From assembly GCA_020630775.1 (NCBI GenBank), contig JAHDIN010000014.1, forward strand, positions 1-64,000: a DNA stretch of 64,000 bases. The letters run 5' to 3'. The DNA is from Saprospiraceae bacterium. GTDB lineage: Bacteria; Bacteroidota; Bacteroidia; Chitinophagales; Saprospiraceae. The notes under the pieces were generated by a model that was not told the DNA's origin, did not search any database, and was given only the letters and a program-made list of their open reading frames with translations. This document shows, one piece after another, positions 1,092-47,421 of the stretch (within the stretch, counting starts at the first letter, position 1; each line of letters starts with the position of its first letter). Both the position numbers and the translations under genes were made by a program.

Positions 1092-2318
1092 TTATCGCAT
1101 TAACGGGTAGGCTAATGTAGCGCGATGACTTTTGCATGGATCTATAGGGAATTGCTGAAGATAATTGTCAAAGTCAATATCTGGATAACGATCTTTTATA
1201 GATTGAATGATCGGGTATAGGGCCATTCGGTCTGTTTTCTTTATTGTTGGACTCGGCCAATTTTTATCTGAATCCACATAAGGTAAAAGATAGTCAATAG
1301 CTTTTTTTAGACGTCCATTTTTATTTTCGCTTTCCCAGATATCAACATCTACTTGTTCAGCAAAATGCGCGACTAAGCACATAGCATGTAAGTTGTAAAT
1401 ACTGTAAAAAAGTGGTCGTGTTCGAGCCGCTTCTTCAGGCATTGAACCGTCAGGTTTGATTTGATTTTGAAGTCTGGAATTGTAAAATTGTTCGGCGATA
1501 TTTTTTGCATCTTCTAGTTGATCAGAATAAATAGCTAAATACATGATTTGAACATCATAGTAACTGCCATGATTGTTTTTTGATCTCGCCTCCTGTAATG
1601 CTAACTCGTTTTGTGTCAACCAATTGTAATACGCATTTGCCCAGTTTTTTAAATCCAAATACTCCGAAGCGTTCAATGTATTTGAGGTTTCTATTAATAA
1701 GGATGCCTCAAATGCTTGTATCAATAAACGGCCATCTAATACACCTGACTTCGAGCCTAAGTTGTGACCTGGTCTACATTGTGCATGATTTAAATGCGTA
1801 TTCATTTTAGTGTCAGGATTCAAAAACCAAGTCCTTATCAATGCTGCTGCTTTTTCAGCATATTTTAATTCCCCAGTAAAATAGTAAGCGAGGCCTAATG
1901 TCTCGGAAGCTTGAGCGAATTGTCCAATTCTGGGACGATCAGATTTTTTGGGATCTTGGCTGTCTGGATTTGTTTCCCCATCTTTTCTAATGTAAGGAAG
2001 GCCATCGGATGTAGTAGAGTCGGGCCACCAATAGCGGCTGTAACTGGCATAGTCATTTTTGATCCCACTTGGTGCTAATTGCGTTTTAGAAGTGACAGAG
2101 TAGGGAGGTGCCATTAATGCCTTGTCCGCCTCTTATATTAATTTATTGAAGGCTATTAGATATCTGCTGTCATTATTTTGAATCGCTTTCTTAGTGTCCA
2201 AAAGCTGATTGGCGTTAAATAAAATCAACGCTTGTGTTGCATTGTCAGATGATGGAGTCTGGCAAGCACAAAGAAGCAGCGATACGGAAAGAAGTAAAAA
2301 GAAAAGAAGCCTATACAT
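1092..2318 (-). pseudogene. Alginate lyase family lipoprotein, interrupted by an in-frame stop
   Basis: Reading from 2318, a lipoprotein signal (lipobox LLCAC) and about 40 further residues end at a TAA at 2133-2135. The same frame continues without any shift as E-A-D-K-A-L-M and then the alginate-lyase core. That core has hallmark motifs PPYSVT, PSG..NDY, YWWPD, GLPYIRKDGE.NPDS, the NHAQC.PG segment and NNHG.YYD. Without the stop this would be a normal-length protein (about 408 residues) of the secreted alginate lyase family (PF05426), which cleaves uronate polysaccharides by beta-elimination. So a single nonsense codon separates a signal-bearing N-terminus from the catalytic body. An internal start at 2114 would give a cytoplasmic, N-truncated protein. 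It could be a true pseudogene, a sequencing error, or a readthrough case; the rest of the frame is clean, so the lesion is recent or artefactual. Confidence 0.85.
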
Positions 2319-2349
2319 CGCTATTTTTTTTGATTACTATGAATGCTTA

Positions 2350-3252
2350 TTATAAATCAGACTTTGGGTCATCATAATACTCAATATCAATATACGTTGT
2401 AATCCAATTGCCTTTGAATCCGCGATTTAAATTAGAATATTTTTTAATTGCATTACCACAAGCATCCTCAAAATAAATTGTTTTACTCTTAAACTTCTCA
2501 ATTTTATCAACGGTTACCTCTTCGTGATAGACTTCTTGCTTTATGAGTCTAAGACTTGTTTTTTTGTAGCTTTTATTTGCGGTTTCCTTGTAAGCTTTTT
2601 TTGATACCAATTTATTTTCGTAATCAAAATGTTCGAAAGTTAATAATTGATCACCATCATATTTTCTTTCGAAGGAGTAGTTTTCAGTCCTGTCAGGGAA
2701 TGTTACTGCAAATTTTGATTCGTTTCCGTGATCGTCATATTTGTAAGTTATGTTTTTAAGTGTGTCTCTTTTATCATTAAGAAATAACCTCTCTGTAGTG
2801 CGACCATCTTGATCTTTAATTAGAATATCTGTCGCAAAGATATTTCCCTGTTTGATTTTATGTATAATAATTTTATCTCCCAAATATTGTAGTTTATCAT
2901 AATAAGAATTTAAACCAATTTTGCGGTAAATGCCAATTATTCTTTTTTTTTCATCATAGGTGTATTTTGAAGTAAATTCTAAATTACCTTTTTTCGTAAA
3001 TAGTGAATCAGAAATAAACTTACCATCTATATCATAGTTGTATTTCTGCCTTAGATACATTTTATTCTTTTGGAATTTAGGCGTTAGTCTACCACGATCG
3101 AGACGAGTGTAAAAGTTTTTGTAAAATTTCTTAGACTTTATTTTACAACTCTTTCCTTGTGTATAAGTTCGGTTGGAAGCAGGGTTTTGACAAAAAATTA
3201 TCTGTGATAAGAGAATCGAAACGATCAACAGATATAATTTTTTAGCTTTCAT
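2350..3252 (-). CDS. Secreted protein with YD-like beta repeats, unknown function
   Basis: This is a 300-residue protein with a clear signal peptide (MKAKKLYLLIVSILLSQ, cleavage near IIFCQ). The mature part has recurrent short motifs of the type YxYDxxGxxxS (YNYDIDGKFISDS, YTYDEKKRIIG, YKYDDHGNESK), resembling the sparse YD-like beta repeats of many Bacteroidota extracellular proteins. One Cys lies near the C-terminus in ACGNAIKK. No catalytic motif is visible. It follows the next gene (3386-5098) in the same direction, but a strong hairpin lies between them, so it is probably transcribed separately. Confidence 0.65.
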   Translation of the reverse strand: MKAKKLYLLIVSILLSQIIFCQNPASNRTYTQGKSCKIKSKKFYKNFYTRLDRGRLTPKFQKNKMYLRQKYNYDIDGKFISDSLFTKKGNLEFTSKYTYDEKKRIIGIYRKIGLNSYYDKLQYLGDKIIIHKIKQGNIFATDILIKDQDGRTTERLFLNDKRDTLKNITYKYDDHGNESKFAVTFPDRTENYSFERKYDGDQLLTFEHFDYENKLVSKKAYKETANKSYKKTSLRLIKQEVYHEEVTVDKIEKFKSKTIYFEDACGNAIKKYSNLNRGFKGNWITTYIDIEYYDDPKSDL

Positions 3253-3325
3253 ACATGACTATTCTTATCGGCTTGGAGTAAGGTTTTTTATGAAGTATTT
3301 ATTTCGGAATATTTATTAATTAATT

Positions 3326-3363
3326 AAGAACAAGAAAGTAAACCCAATAACTTTCTTGTTCTT
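3326..3363 (-). terminator. Intrinsic terminator after the 570-residue secreted protein
   Basis: A perfect 14-bp inverted repeat (AAGAACAAGAAAGT / ACTTTCTTGTTCTT, arms 3326-3339 and 3350-3363) with a 10-nt loop lies 22 bp downstream of the stop of the gene at 3386. The T-tract on the minus strand is weak (TTAATTAATT), so termination efficiency is uncertain. Confidence 0.55.
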
Positions 3364-3385
3364 TTAATGTCTTGTTATATCTGTA

Positions 3386-5098
3386 TTAAAAAGTCATAGA
3401 AGTGAGTACGTTAGGATGAGATAGCTCACCATCTTCGTCTTGAGTTAATAATTTATTGACAAAGTAATACTGCCCTTTATGCTTGTATATCTTGGTCTTT
3501 TGCTCATACATAAGTCTTTCGAGATACATAGGGTTATTTTCGAAATTAGAAATCTGTTCAGCTTTGCCGTTAGCTATTCTGTAGAAAGTTGGTAAAGTAA
3601 CTTCTCCTCTGTAGTTTTTGACCTTTGTAAGTTCCTTTGTGACTGCAATGGTATTGTCAGCATCGTCAATGATAAGTTCGAAGTTTGATCCTTTGTTGTC
3701 TGAGTCAATATTGTCAATGACTATCGGGTTGTTAAAATCGGCATCGTTTAAAGGATGTAAATAGTAAGCGTTGTATGATTTTGTGGTTGACTTATAATTT
3801 TTGAAAACGATAAATTCACCTTGTTGGGTCGAATTGTAACTGTGCGGTACAATGTTCATTTTTTTATCTACATCAAACGCATACATTTTCTGCGAACTAG
3901 GACTGGAAACTAATACAAATTTATGAAACCATTTTTCCATCGTGCCAATAGCAATAGTCGTTTGGTGGTCCGAAGTAATTAAGGTGTCCAAAGTTCTAAA
4001 TTCCTTTGGCAAATCATAAATGTGGTCGTACAGGACACTGCCATCCGCATTGATGCCCAATAAATTCAATTGATTCTTATTCCCTTCGGCATTGATTTTT
4101 TTGGTTACTTTTTGTTTAAATAATTGTGTGCTGTAATTGATATCAGCTAGATTATTTTCATTTTTCGTGTAATGATTAGCACCAATTTCTTTCTCCCATG
4201 GAATGTCTAAATTTCGCTCTGTTCTATTAATGACCTCACCTTGGTTATCAATAAGAACTATTTCTTGTTGTTGAAATTCTGTTAAATTATCATCTTTTGA
4301 TTTATAGCTATTAATAGCTAAGACATTTCCAGTTAATGGTGACGCTGCAGATTCTATGACTGCCCAATAATTCTTTTTGTCCTGACCACCATTGTATATT
4401 TTTTCCCAATCTAAATTAACTTCCTCTACAACTTCGAAAGTATTGGATAGGTCTTCTCCATTGAGCTTACTGTTAAATTTGTTAAGATCAGTACCAACCT
4501 GAGCAACCTTACTTAATAATCCTTTTTTTCTACCTTTTTTCTTTTTGGGTGCTGCTTTTTCTGAGGCATTTTTTGAGATTTTTTTACTATTAAATCCAAG
4601 GACTTTACCCTTAAAGGCTGAGTAGGAAAGTTTGGATTTATAATAGCTTTCAGGGAAGATGCCATTGTGGTCATCCAATACGTCTATCTCTTTTAAAGCT
4701 GGATACTGTTCTGTAATCTCTTCATAATTTTTAATTGTAGATCCAAGACCCACTTCAAATTTATTCCTTCTCATCATGTCAATAGGTCTGTAGCTATTTA
4801 ATGCAGGTTGACTCAAAACGATTTGGTCTGAAATGACATAACGACCATTCGACTTTTGCTCCATTATCCAAATTTTATTAATGTATACAGCTTCTTGAGC
4901 ACCAGAGTTAGTGACATATTCCTTGGCCATAATAAAAAGTCTTAATCCACTGTCAATAGGTTCGACTTTTATAATCCTCATATCTGTATCTACAAAATGA
5001 GGAATCTCCGAATGGTTAAACTGCTGAGCTGATAAAGTGAGGCTTAGGGTCGTAAATAACAATAAAAAGTAACTTGTTAATTGATTCATCAAAAACAT
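3386..5098 (-). CDS. Large secreted protein, unknown function
   Basis: This is a 570-residue protein with a Sec signal peptide (cleavage near LTLSAQ). A second in-frame ATG three codons later (5089) would give a more compact signal peptide. After the signal comes a beta-rich N-terminal part, then a very basic low-complexity stretch (KKISKNASEKAAPKKKKGRK, about residues 174-193). The long C-terminal part has regularly spaced YxxxxxNxxxLxxxLxxI-type strands, as in extracellular propeller-like proteins. No enzyme motif or T9SS sorting domain is visible. It lies divergent from the efflux operon across the CGAGCC repeat array. Confidence 0.65.
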   Translation of the reverse strand: MFLMNQLTSYFLLLFTTLSLTLSAQQFNHSEIPHFVDTDMRIIKVEPIDSGLRLFIMAKEYVTNSGAQEAVYINKIWIMEQKSNGRYVISDQIVLSQPALNSYRPIDMMRRNKFEVGLGSTIKNYEEITEQYPALKEIDVLDDHNGIFPESYYKSKLSYSAFKGKVLGFNSKKISKNASEKAAPKKKKGRKKGLLSKVAQVGTDLNKFNSKLNGEDLSNTFEVVEEVNLDWEKIYNGGQDKKNYWAVIESAASPLTGNVLAINSYKSKDDNLTEFQQQEIVLIDNQGEVINRTERNLDIPWEKEIGANHYTKNENNLADINYSTQLFKQKVTKKINAEGNKNQLNLLGINADGSVLYDHIYDLPKEFRTLDTLITSDHQTTIAIGTMEKWFHKFVLVSSPSSQKMYAFDVDKKMNIVPHSYNSTQQGEFIVFKNYKSTTKSYNAYYLHPLNDADFNNPIVIDNIDSDNKGSNFELIIDDADNTIAVTKELTKVKNYRGEVTLPTFYRIANGKAEQISNFENNPMYLERLMYEQKTKIYKHKGQYYFVNKLLTQDEDGELSHPNVLTSMTF

Positions 5099-44887: not shown

Positions 44888-45856
44888 CTAAACCGCCACC
44901 AACTCCCCAAACCTAACTTCCTCCAACTTCAACGCTTCGCCCAGAAATTTAGCAATCTCATACATGCCTTCTTTCTTCAGTTCCGATTTTTGTTCGGCAG
45001 CAGAATTGTAATTCGTATTGGTGTTGACATCATAAACCCATTTTTCACCATTTTTATCTTCGACATATTCTAGAGCACCTACGCCAATATTATTTGATTT
45101 CAAGAATGCTTGATATTTATCTAGGTGCTTGTTGCTGTAAGGTTCTAGAATTTTAAATTTATTTGATTGCGCTTGGCTGTTGGCGGGGCAGAAGGCATCT
45201 TCAATGTTGCAAGAATCAGCAGGGCATAATTCAAAGCCATTCTGGGCATCTATACTTACAGCGTAAAGAAATTCACCTCCAACAAATTCCGCTCTTACAA
45301 TTCTACCATTATGAGGTTTGATATATTCTTGAACCAACCAAATGCCATCTAGAGACTCTCCAATTTGGTTTGTTTTAATCGAGTTTTCTAAGCTTTCTTT
45401 AGAATAGAATAATTGCACACCAGCCCCTTTTCCACCTCTATTGGGCTTTAAGATAAAGGGAAATTTATTAAACCTTTCAACAGCTGAAAGCAGGCTGTTC
45501 GTATGATTAGCGACTATTGTCTTGGGATGTTTTATGTTGAATTTCTGAAGTGCAATATACTGCTCGGATTTTCTCAGTTCTAACTGTAATGCTTGACGAC
45601 CATTGATGACATGACGCCCGTGCCTTTCTAACCATGCTAATATATTACCAGTCATTTCAGGGGAGTAGCGGTGTCCTCGAGTATGTGCTGATGCGCTCAT
45701 TCTATTATAGAAAATGCCTTCTGGCGGGGTAGCATCTAAGTCTAAGGTAAGGTCATTAATAAACCATTCTTCAAAAGGTAATTGTAGTTTTTTGAATGCT
45801 GCTCTTAATGGAATCACCCAATCATCATTTTCGTGAATTACATAGATTTTACTCAT
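44888..45856 (-). CDS. RimK-like ATP-grasp ligase under poly-Cys attenuator control
   Basis: Starting at MSKIYVIHEN (ATG 45856) this is 322 residues. The in-frame ATG at 45874 directly abuts the terminator T-tract and leaves no space for ribosome binding. ATP-grasp features: FPFILKPNRGGKGAGVQLF (ATP-binding Lys and Gly loop), IWLVQEYIKPHNGRIVRAEF, ALEYVEDKNGEKWVYDVNTNTNYN (metal-binding Glu/Asn). It is closest to RimK/alpha-glutamate-ligase-type enzymes, which form amide bonds between a carboxylate (via acyl phosphate) and an amine. A Cys-rich insert (ELCPADSCNIEDAFCPA) is unusual. The upstream leader with seven Cys codons implies expression rises when charged tRNA-Cys is scarce, pointing to cysteine- or thiol-linked chemistry. 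Substrates are unknown. Confidence 0.82.
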   Translation of the reverse strand: MSKIYVIHENDDWVIPLRAAFKKLQLPFEEWFINDLTLDLDATPPEGIFYNRMSASAHTRGHRYSPEMTGNILAWLERHGRHVINGRQALQLELRKSEQYIALQKFNIKHPKTIVANHTNSLLSAVERFNKFPFILKPNRGGKGAGVQLFYSKESLENSIKTNQIGESLDGIWLVQEYIKPHNGRIVRAEFVGGEFLYAVSIDAQNGFELCPADSCNIEDAFCPANSQAQSNKFKILEPYSNKHLDKYQAFLKSNNIGVGALEYVEDKNGEKWVYDVNTNTNYNSAAEQKSELKKEGMYEIAKFLGEALKLEEVRFGELVAV

Positions 45857-45873: not shown

Positions 45874-45965
45874 TAAAAAAAGAGCCTTCCCACAGATAAG
45901 CGAGAAGGCTCTTAATATTTACTTTATTAATAAATCACATACACCATTCTCTGCTTATTAAAGCA
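45874..45965 (-). promoter_or_regulatory. Transcription attenuator: mutually exclusive hairpins and intrinsic terminator
   Basis: On the minus strand, segment 1 TGCTT (45965-45961, overlapping the last Cys codon) pairs with AAGCA (45956-45952). Segment 2 AAGCAGAGAATGG (45956-45944) pairs over 11 bp with segment 3 CCTTCTCGCTT (45908-45898), with one bulged A and one bulged T. Segment 3 is also the 5' part of the terminator stem AAGAGCCTTC (45913-45904) / GAAGGCTCTT (45889-45880), followed by seven T (to 45874). So 1:2 plus 3:4 (off) excludes 2:3 (on), the classical attenuator geometry. A ribosome stalled on the Cys codons covers segment 1 and favours 2:3, allowing readthrough into the ligase gene. 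Confidence 0.88.
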
Positions 45966-46015
45966 CAACAGCAACAACAGCAGCAAAATAGGTTTGTATG
46001 TATAGTATTATTCAT
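45935..46015 (-). CDS. Poly-cysteine leader peptide (26 residues)
   Basis: ATG 46015 opens a 26-codon frame: ten residues (MNNTIHTNLF), then seven consecutive Cys codons (45985-45965, mixed TGC/TGT), then ALISREWCM and TGA at 45937-45935. It begins about 9 bp after an exact -7 box, so the mRNA is nearly leaderless. An RNA switch and terminator follow, and then the ATP-grasp gene. The layout equals that of amino-acid operon leaders (for example seven His codons in the his leader). Mixed use of TGC and TGT argues against a simple microsatellite. Alternatively the peptide itself could be a substrate of the ligase, or a metal or thiol sensor. Confidence 0.88.
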   Translation of the reverse strand: MNNTIHTNLFCCCCCCCALISREWCM

Positions 46016-46023
46016 ATTTGATT

Positions 46024-46054
46024 CAAATCTAGAACGAAAATCCATAAGAGTCAA
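46024..46054 (-). promoter_or_regulatory. Consensus Bacteroidota promoter of the poly-Cys leader
   Basis: On the minus strand the -7 box TAGATTTG (46031-46024) matches TAnnTTTG exactly. A TTG (-33 element, 46054-46052) lies 20 nt upstream, the consensus spacing. The start codon of the leader peptide is 8 nt downstream of the -7 box. Confidence 0.8.
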
Positions 46055-46095: not shown

Positions 46096-46295
46096 GCAAG
46101 GGGTCAAGGTGTCAAGGTTTCAAGGTGTCAAGGCGTCTCGGTGTCACGGTGTCAAGGTTTCGGGGTATCATGGTTTCAAGGCTTTTGGATTTCTCAAGTT
46201 ATTGGATAATATAGCAAAATGTATTGACCCCTAGACCCTGAGTTGCCGAGGCCCTCAGAAACCGAGAAACCTTGAAACCGAGAAACCAAAAAATT
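46096..46295. repeat. Degenerate GGTGTCAA octamer array with an inverted counterpart
   Basis: 46096-46186 holds about ten degenerate octamers of the type GGTGTCAA / GGTTTCAA / GGTGTCTC. After a 50-bp AT-rich interval, 46233-46295 holds the opposite orientation (CCGAGAAACC, CCTTGAAACC, CCGAGAAACC). The two halves could pair into a long imperfect hairpin. The array lies between the divergent poly-Cys leader and the FAS1 lipoprotein gene, which starts about 100 bp further on. Confidence 0.8.
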
Positions 46296-46392: not shown

Positions 46393-47421
46393 ATGAAAAT
46401 TAAAGCCTTATGGTTTTGCACAATCATGGCAGTGCTACTGGCTAGCTGTGCTAAAGATGCAGAAATTAGTGAGACAGTAACTTCCGAAACAGCTATCGAG
46501 ATACGCTATGAAGACGGAACGGACATTATTGAAGCTCAAACAGATTGGATGCCTCAATCTACCAATGAACTCGAAAAAAGAAATGACTACAGAAGCTATT
46601 ATTCATTCAATACTTTAACGAGAGCTTTACAATGTACAGGCTTAGACAGAGCAGTTTTTGATGGAAGAAAAACGGTATATGCACCTTCTGATGCCGCTTT
46701 CAGAACATTAGGTTACGATGAGAGAAGTGTTTGCAATATCGATAAAAATACATTGATATCTATTTTGCTATATCATGTTGTCGATGGTAAAGTAGAGAAG
46801 GATGGCTGCATAGAAATGATTGATGGTAATATTGCTCAACTTAAAGAGGGTAGCCATGGGCCAGAAATTAATGGAGCTTTAAATTATACCTCTTTCACAT
46901 TATCTGGACCAGGATACAATGTTAGATTGAATGCGATCAATGAAATCTTATCAGCGCCTACTCAAAATATCGTAGGTACTGCAGCTGGTACAGAAATGTT
47001 TTCTTCTCTCGTAGCAGCAGTATTAGCAGCGGATCCTGCAGTAGCGGCAGCCTTATCAAATCCAGATGCAAGCTTTACAGTATTCGCTCCAACAAATGAA
47101 GCTTTCAGTAATTTGATTGATGCATTAGGTGTAGGAGACCTAAATGGATTAGTAGCGGCTATCGGTACTGAAGCTTTAACAGAAGTGTTGTTGTATCATG
47201 TTGTTGACGCTTGCGTCTTCTCAAATGAGTTATCAAACGGCATGCGTATTACCACTTTATTAGGTGAAGATATTACAACTGAATTTAGAAGAAAGAGAAA
47301 ACCAAGATTGGTTGACAGTACTGGTGGTAAATCAAAACTAGAACTTAATGCTTTAGATATCAGAACGACTAACGGCGTTGTACATACTATTGATAGGGTG
47401 TTGATTCCTAGTACGATATAG
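46393..47421 (+). CDS. Lipoprotein with two fasciclin (FAS1) domains
   Basis: This 342-residue protein has lipobox LLASC (Cys about residue 19). FAS1 domain 1 (about 60-185) has YYSFNTLTRALQCTGLDRAV, TVYAPSDAAFRTLG and LISILLYHVVDG. FAS1 domain 2 (about 195-342) has MFSSLVAAVLAAD, FTVFAPTNEAFSNL, LTEVLLYHVVDA and the closing TNGVVHTIDRVLIP. FAS1 domains mediate adhesion to proteins or polysaccharides. It is surface- or periplasm-anchored and single-gene, with a terminator at 47461. Confidence 0.9.
   Translation: MKIKALWFCTIMAVLLASCAKDAEISETVTSETAIEIRYEDGTDIIEAQTDWMPQSTNELEKRNDYRSYYSFNTLTRALQCTGLDRAVFDGRKTVYAPSDAAFRTLGYDERSVCNIDKNTLISILLYHVVDGKVEKDGCIEMIDGNIAQLKEGSHGPEINGALNYTSFTLSGPGYNVRLNAINEILSAPTQNIVGTAAGTEMFSSLVAAVLAADPAVAAALSNPDASFTVFAPTNEAFSNLIDALGVGDLNGLVAAIGTEALTEVLLYHVVDACVFSNELSNGMRITTLLGEDITTEFRRKRKPRLVDSTGGKSKLELNALDIRTTNGVVHTIDRVLIPSTI

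Follow-up and report, generated by a model that had tools for sequence, protein, structure and literature searches.

A poly-cysteine leader peptide and predicted transcription attenuator ahead of an orphan ATP-grasp ligase gene in Bacteroidota

Whether Bacteroidota read their cysteine supply through leader peptides is a question raised by a short open reading frame (ORF) with seven adjacent cysteine (Cys) codons, which lies ahead of an ATP-grasp ligase gene in a Saprospiraceae bacterium. The window analyzed here is the whole stretch of 64,000 nucleotides from contig JAHDIN010000014.1 (assembly GCA_020630775.1); the host genome belongs to the Bacteroidota and is 53.9% complete, and its nearest named relatives are Saprospiraceae. 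Judged from sequence and predicted folding, the locus very probably (a probability of roughly 0.88) carries a classical ribosome-mediated transcription attenuator that would sense charged tRNACys and control an orphan ATP-grasp ligase of a cysteine/sulfur regulon. Cysteine-responsive attenuation is a known mechanism; what is new is its occurrence in this phylum, the regulon, and the orphan ligase. Cysteine-responsive leaderless attenuators were reportedly described in mycobacteria by Canestrari et al. in 2020. The trp, his, leu, and ilv attenuators of Proteobacteria share with the present locus a leader ORF with control codons, mutually exclusive 1:2, 2:3, and 3:4 pairing, and an intrinsic terminator, whereas cysteine as the control amino acid, a nearly leaderless Bacteroidota-type promoter, and an orphan ATP-grasp gene set this locus apart from them.

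All features of the locus are on the minus strand. The leader ORF (45935..46015) comprises 26 codons (MNNTIHTNLFCCCCCCCALISREWCM), from an ATG at 46015 to a TGA stop codon at 45937-45935, and was recognized by direct reading and by analogous leaders in orthologs. The seven Cys codons (45985-45965), the putative sensor, overlap segment 1 of the RNA structure; such a run of adjacent TGY codons, observed once, is expected 0.00 times when the window is shuffled. Clustered codons of one amino acid in a translatable short ORF, as expected of an attenuator, are accordingly present, and we infer that the leader is translated and that it responds to cysteine. Upstream lies a Bacteroidota-type promoter (46024..46054), in which TTG (46054-46052) is separated by a 20-nt spacer from TAGATTTG (46031-46024), a 6/6 match to TAnnTTTG. 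The score of this pair (6/6 plus TTG) was matched by 0.5% of shuffles of the 75 nt upstream. With 8 nt between the promoter and its ATG, the leader is expected to be transcribed as a nearly leaderless mRNA; in the wider set of attenuators treated below, the promoter motif is evident in part of the cases only. Two degenerate 8-bp tandem-repeat arrays (CAAGGTGT and AGAAACCG, window positions 46097-46181 and 46257-46287) occupy the intergenic DNA upstream of this promoter.

The leader RNA folds far more stably than its dinucleotide shuffles (z = -5.6). Segment 2 (45943..45958), the antiterminator strand, is predicted to have two alternative partners, namely segment 1 in the absence of a ribosome and the terminator 5′ arm (cis duplex of -15.4 kcal/mol). 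The intrinsic terminator hairpin itself (segments 3 and 4; 45880..45913) has 14 pairs and -23 kcal/mol, is followed by T5 (45879-45875), and stands between the leader and the first gene, the position expected in an attenuator. On the minus strand, no gene lies immediately upstream of the leader, and its neighbor at 46393 is divergent; therefore, this terminator cannot mark where some other transcript ends. The gap between the terminator and the ligase start is 24 nt, too short to accommodate a promoter, and a ligase transcription start beyond the terminator, named by the sequence-only reading as an observation that would count against attenuation, is thus not indicated. No Rfam leader family matched at the gathering score in the window or in eight relative loci.

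The switch was followed by folding the RNA 3′ of a stalled ribosome before the 3′ arm of the terminator exists, with a Cys codon in the A-site and an assumed footprint that reaches 14 nt beyond the first base of that codon. With any of Cys codons 1 to 5 in the A-site, segment 2 forms 14 pairs with the terminator 5′ arm, i.e., an 11-bp antiterminator plus three extra pairs from the fold, and with Cys 6 or 7 there, 12 or 8 segment 2:3 pairs are formed. When no ribosome is present, segment 2 is bound by segment 1 and has zero pairs with the terminator 5′ arm, while a ribosome at the stop codon allows the terminator to form (-23.5 kcal/mol). The sequence-only reading had claimed an exact TAnnTTTG promoter with TTG 20 nt upstream, a 26-codon leader with seven adjacent Cys codons, alternative pairing of segments 1 and 2, an 11-bp pairing of segments 2 and 3, and a strong intrinsic terminator ahead of the ligase gene, and each of these elements was recovered, the 11-bp pairing being extended by the fold.

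In the proposed mechanism, scarcity of Cys-tRNA would stall the ribosome in the Cys run and thereby mask segment 1, so that segment 2 would pair with the terminator 5′ arm and RNA polymerase would read through into the ligase gene. When Cys-tRNA is plentiful, the ribosome would reach the stop codon and mask segment 2, the terminator would form, and transcription would end. An untranslated leader would also be terminated, through pairing of segments 1 and 2.

Orthologs of the ligase were found at the level of the order, phylum, and class, as well as in a set of named metagenome-assembled genomes (MAGs). The gene is patchily distributed, being present in 5 of 199 genomes of the order and in 10 of 395 genomes of the phylum. 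The upstream DNA could be read for 21 orthologs, which are 29-77% identical and come from several families, and a Cys-rich short leader was found ahead of 20 of them; leaving aside the window's own, 19 of 20 have analogous leaders. One further ortholog (L011), whose upstream region is cut by a contig end, was left out of this count. Examples include MLQRIGLYTSCCCCCNLSISLSRERRM, MINLSLNRNLCCCCCCCTRVHWKGFYVLND, MNYTYLHTACCCCCPLRKWSRVRHM, and MKLFTNSINACCCCCCCNNPNLN, the GC-rich MLTRLHMYCCCCPSSRV and MTAPSPAHCCCCPYTRA, and the Hymenobacter-like MRRAGMGCCCCCWLA. In a few leaders, the run is shorter or interrupted (CCC, CRCRC, or CMCGC), and the single exception (L080, genome G491) has two spaced Cys codons only (MTGWCLSCSPMW). 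The relatives include Hymenobacter and Rhodothermia/Salinibacter, names that represent our own reading of kinship and sequence, and the arrangement is repeated ahead of this gene in about eight families. Conservation of the leader upstream of orthologous ATP-grasp genes, to which the sequence-only reading had looked for support, is therefore extensive. Two orthologs that came to light after the prediction had been fixed both have a Cys leader; one leader (MKTISHIAAAFCCVCCCCACWRGKASCVLR) is followed by a terminator, and the other (MRNLSFISFLNILSRIFYSAGNYCCCCCPCLGEKVF) precedes a protein of 29% identity.

These data bear on the possibility that a low-complexity TGY repeat happens to lie next to an ordinary terminator. 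Similar TGY runs do exist elsewhere, antisense to poly-Gln and comparable stretches, and those remaining in the window's genome are antisense to poly-Gln or within genes; no further poly-Cys leader was found in this 53.9% complete assembly. However, such runs lack the arrangement of ATG, stop codon, and terminator. Moreover, the ligase loci, 283,681 bases in total, contain 13 short ORFs with at least four adjacent Cys codons, each of which precedes the ligase or its operon, so that the recurrence before one gene in about eight families has no match elsewhere in these 284 kb. With the two later orthologs also preceded by Cys leaders, chance is regarded as refuted by conservation and retains a vanishingly small probability.

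A second possibility is that the ORF encodes a functional small Cys-rich peptide, which binds metal or thiols, and that the hairpin is incidental. The peptide is indeed rich in Cys and conserved in position, but outside the Cys run it is unrelated between families and varies in length from 12 to 36 residues. This explanation also leaves unaccounted for the terminator before the gene and the specificity of the antiterminator for its own terminator. Among 27 attenuators, the segment that follows the Cys run pairs with its own terminator at a mean of -13.7 kcal/mol, compared with -9.4 kcal/mol in cross combinations (Wilcoxon p = 2 × 10−6, an optimistic value because the 27 are not phylogenetically independent). 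A peptide function as the explanation is accordingly considered very improbable. Alternative pairing in relatives, another point on which the sequence-only reading had staked its case, is thus kept in cis, and together with the stall folding this comparison indicates an antiterminator that excludes the terminator and is freed by a stalled ribosome. The antiterminator pairs weakly in two loci (L009 and L079), and in another (L003) the terminator has no strong T-run and was missed by terminator detection.

It could also be supposed that the leader acts by translation coupling or through Rho, as proposed for mycobacterial poly-Cys leaders, and that the hairpin is not a switch. In Actinobacteria, short ORFs with Cys runs precede cys genes without terminators (PMC1262725), the mycobacterial poly-Cys leaders are described as cysteine-responsive leaderless attenuators in a citing passage of PMC13236596, and the leader studied here is nearly leaderless as well. 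On the other hand, nearly all attenuators of the present set have a strong hairpin with a T-run, and the alternative pairing of the region immediately after the Cys run is kept; a short Cys-run ORF is common to both groups, while the full terminator and antiterminator are found here only. Coupling or Rho control is thus unlikely, if somewhat less so than a peptide function, and classical attenuation remains the preferred reading.

Cys runs, alone or together with a terminator, were also searched for across the order, and the genes downstream are, as expected for an attenuator, related to the sensed amino acid. Poly-Cys attenuators precede PLP-dependent cysteine synthase-like (PALP) genes, whose closest NCBIfam models are CysM and CysK/M, and NIR_SIR genes, whose closest models are NirA-type and which should therefore encode nitrite or sulfite reductases. 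In one ligase genome, a poly-Cys attenuator lies before a gene closest to mercaptopyruvate sulfurtransferase, and in another (G353, locus L162) a leader with a GTG start (VDCFPNRPVSSLAPVRRRARLAGCCCCC) precedes an amino acid permease gene. The permease leader and the ligase leader of G353 have the 5′ sequence AAAAACAAGTTGCCGTGGAC in common. In G023, the ligase gene is the third of an operon, metY - metX/hom fusion - ligase, which is preceded by a mixed Cys/Met leader (MKLNSVNIIPSAKHNNSCCMCMCCCCMTSNGRCMI) and a terminator. A fusion of a homoserine acetyltransferase-like domain to homoserine dehydrogenase is seen at L069 (positions 2303-4318; a protein of 671 amino acids). Poly-Cys leaders with terminators also precede 1-Cys peroxiredoxin genes (L047, L048, L049, L091, and L100), which suggests that this peroxide-defense enzyme is under cysteine attenuation. 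At L093, a poly-Cys leader and terminator lie ahead of a gene for a small membrane-like protein.

With regard to CysK/M in ligase genomes, no clear poly-Cys leader was found before these genes in G135, G023, G006, G073, and G353, and a possible one (MAPEAVRCRCWCRCCSPPERP...) was seen in G337 (L131). CysK/M genes of other genomes in the order carry poly-Cys leaders, as if the sensor were placed on different genes in different lineages. Control by charged tRNACys is strengthened by the occurrence of the same device before cysteine synthase, NirA/sulfite reductase-type, sulfurtransferase, and metY-metX/hom genes. Since distantly related genomes share the device and further sulfur genes are preceded by it, it probably marks a gene set under cysteine control, one undescribed in the phylum.

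The ligase (44888..45856) has 322 amino acids when its start is set by orthology; an in-frame ATG upstream at 45874 would give 328. Its RimK-like ATP-grasp nature, asserted by the sequence-only reading, is upheld by a match to Pfam PF08443 (E = 6 × 10−9; 36.2 bits against a gathering score of 21), which places it in this superfamily, and by the predicted fold. The AlphaFold model (mean pLDDT of 70) resembles LysX/ArgX, RimK, and Ddl, with 3vpb, 3vpd, and 5zct as the best fold matches to LysX/ArgX and RimK ligases. The RimK family alpha-L-glutamate ligase profile of NCBIfam (rimK_fam, TIGR00768) also matched (E = 4 × 10−20), with 72.3 bits, below its curated cut-off of 143.4. The ligase differs from LysX/ArgX and RimK in that it is 16-19% identical to them, falls below the curated NCBIfam cut-offs, and has a conserved LCPAxxC motif, invariant among orthologs down to about 31% identity. 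The region of this motif (model residues 207-232) has a pLDDT below 50, and no active-site argument is drawn from the model for that reason. A LysX-type amino-group-carrier pathway was considered and rejected: LysW (TIGR01206) is absent from eight ligase genomes, and a control search was positive where expected (4 of 14), which puts the ligase outside this pathway.

In eight loci, the gene after the ligase encodes a flavin monooxygenase that is closest to the FMNH2-dependent SfnG and SsuD but falls below the SfnG equivalog cut-off. SfnG/SsuD enzymes cleave C-S bonds for sulfur supply. Neither in the window nor in its Saprospiraceae relatives does such a gene adjoin that of the ligase, and the best match to an SfnG-like gene in the window's genome (53.9% complete) is 28% only, so the partner of the ligase may vary. 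The neighbor, together with the one metY-metX/hom operon, suggests sulfur scavenging. The sequence-only reading stands as regards the attenuator, with leader conserved and alternative pairing kept in cis. Its proposal of a cysteine- or thiol-forming ligase is one possible reading, and scavenging of sulfur from an organosulfur compound would fit the monooxygenase neighbors at least equally well. Our best guess, much less certain than the attenuator, is an ATP-dependent amide (carboxylate-amine) ligase activity toward a sulfur-containing amino compound in such scavenging. A more specific and rather doubtful proposal is an undescribed route of sulfur acquisition made up of the ligase and its SfnG/SsuD-like partner. 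In it, the ATP-grasp enzyme might join a carrier group to an organosulfur amine or amino acid, the monooxygenase might then break the C-S bond, and a phylum-wide poly-Cys attenuator regulon might switch the set on.

A close described counterpart is the uORFC-8-2 motif before cysS in Rhodobacterales, a predicted attenuator with two tandem Cys codons and an intrinsic terminator (PMC8632094). A Cys-codon attenuator with an intrinsic terminator is common to both, whereas the present attenuators belong to another phylum, have runs mostly of 4-8 Cys codons rather than two, and precede sulfur genes rather than a cysteinyl-tRNA synthetase gene. Within the Bacteroidota, leader-peptide attenuation before amino-acid operons has been described for Flavobacterium psychrophilum, in passages of PMC9723704 that make no mention of cysteine. 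A literature search with most subscription journals outside its scope returned no report of Cys leaders or poly-Cys attenuators in Bacteroidota, and none of the ATP-grasp/SfnG-like gene pair.

Bacteroidota would thus gain a readable cysteine sensor, and a poly-Cys leader followed by a terminator would provide a simple rule for locating their sulfur genes, orphans among them. This is clearest for the ligase: regulation conserved across several families ties the gene to cysteine supply, and through this link its function becomes a testable biochemical question.
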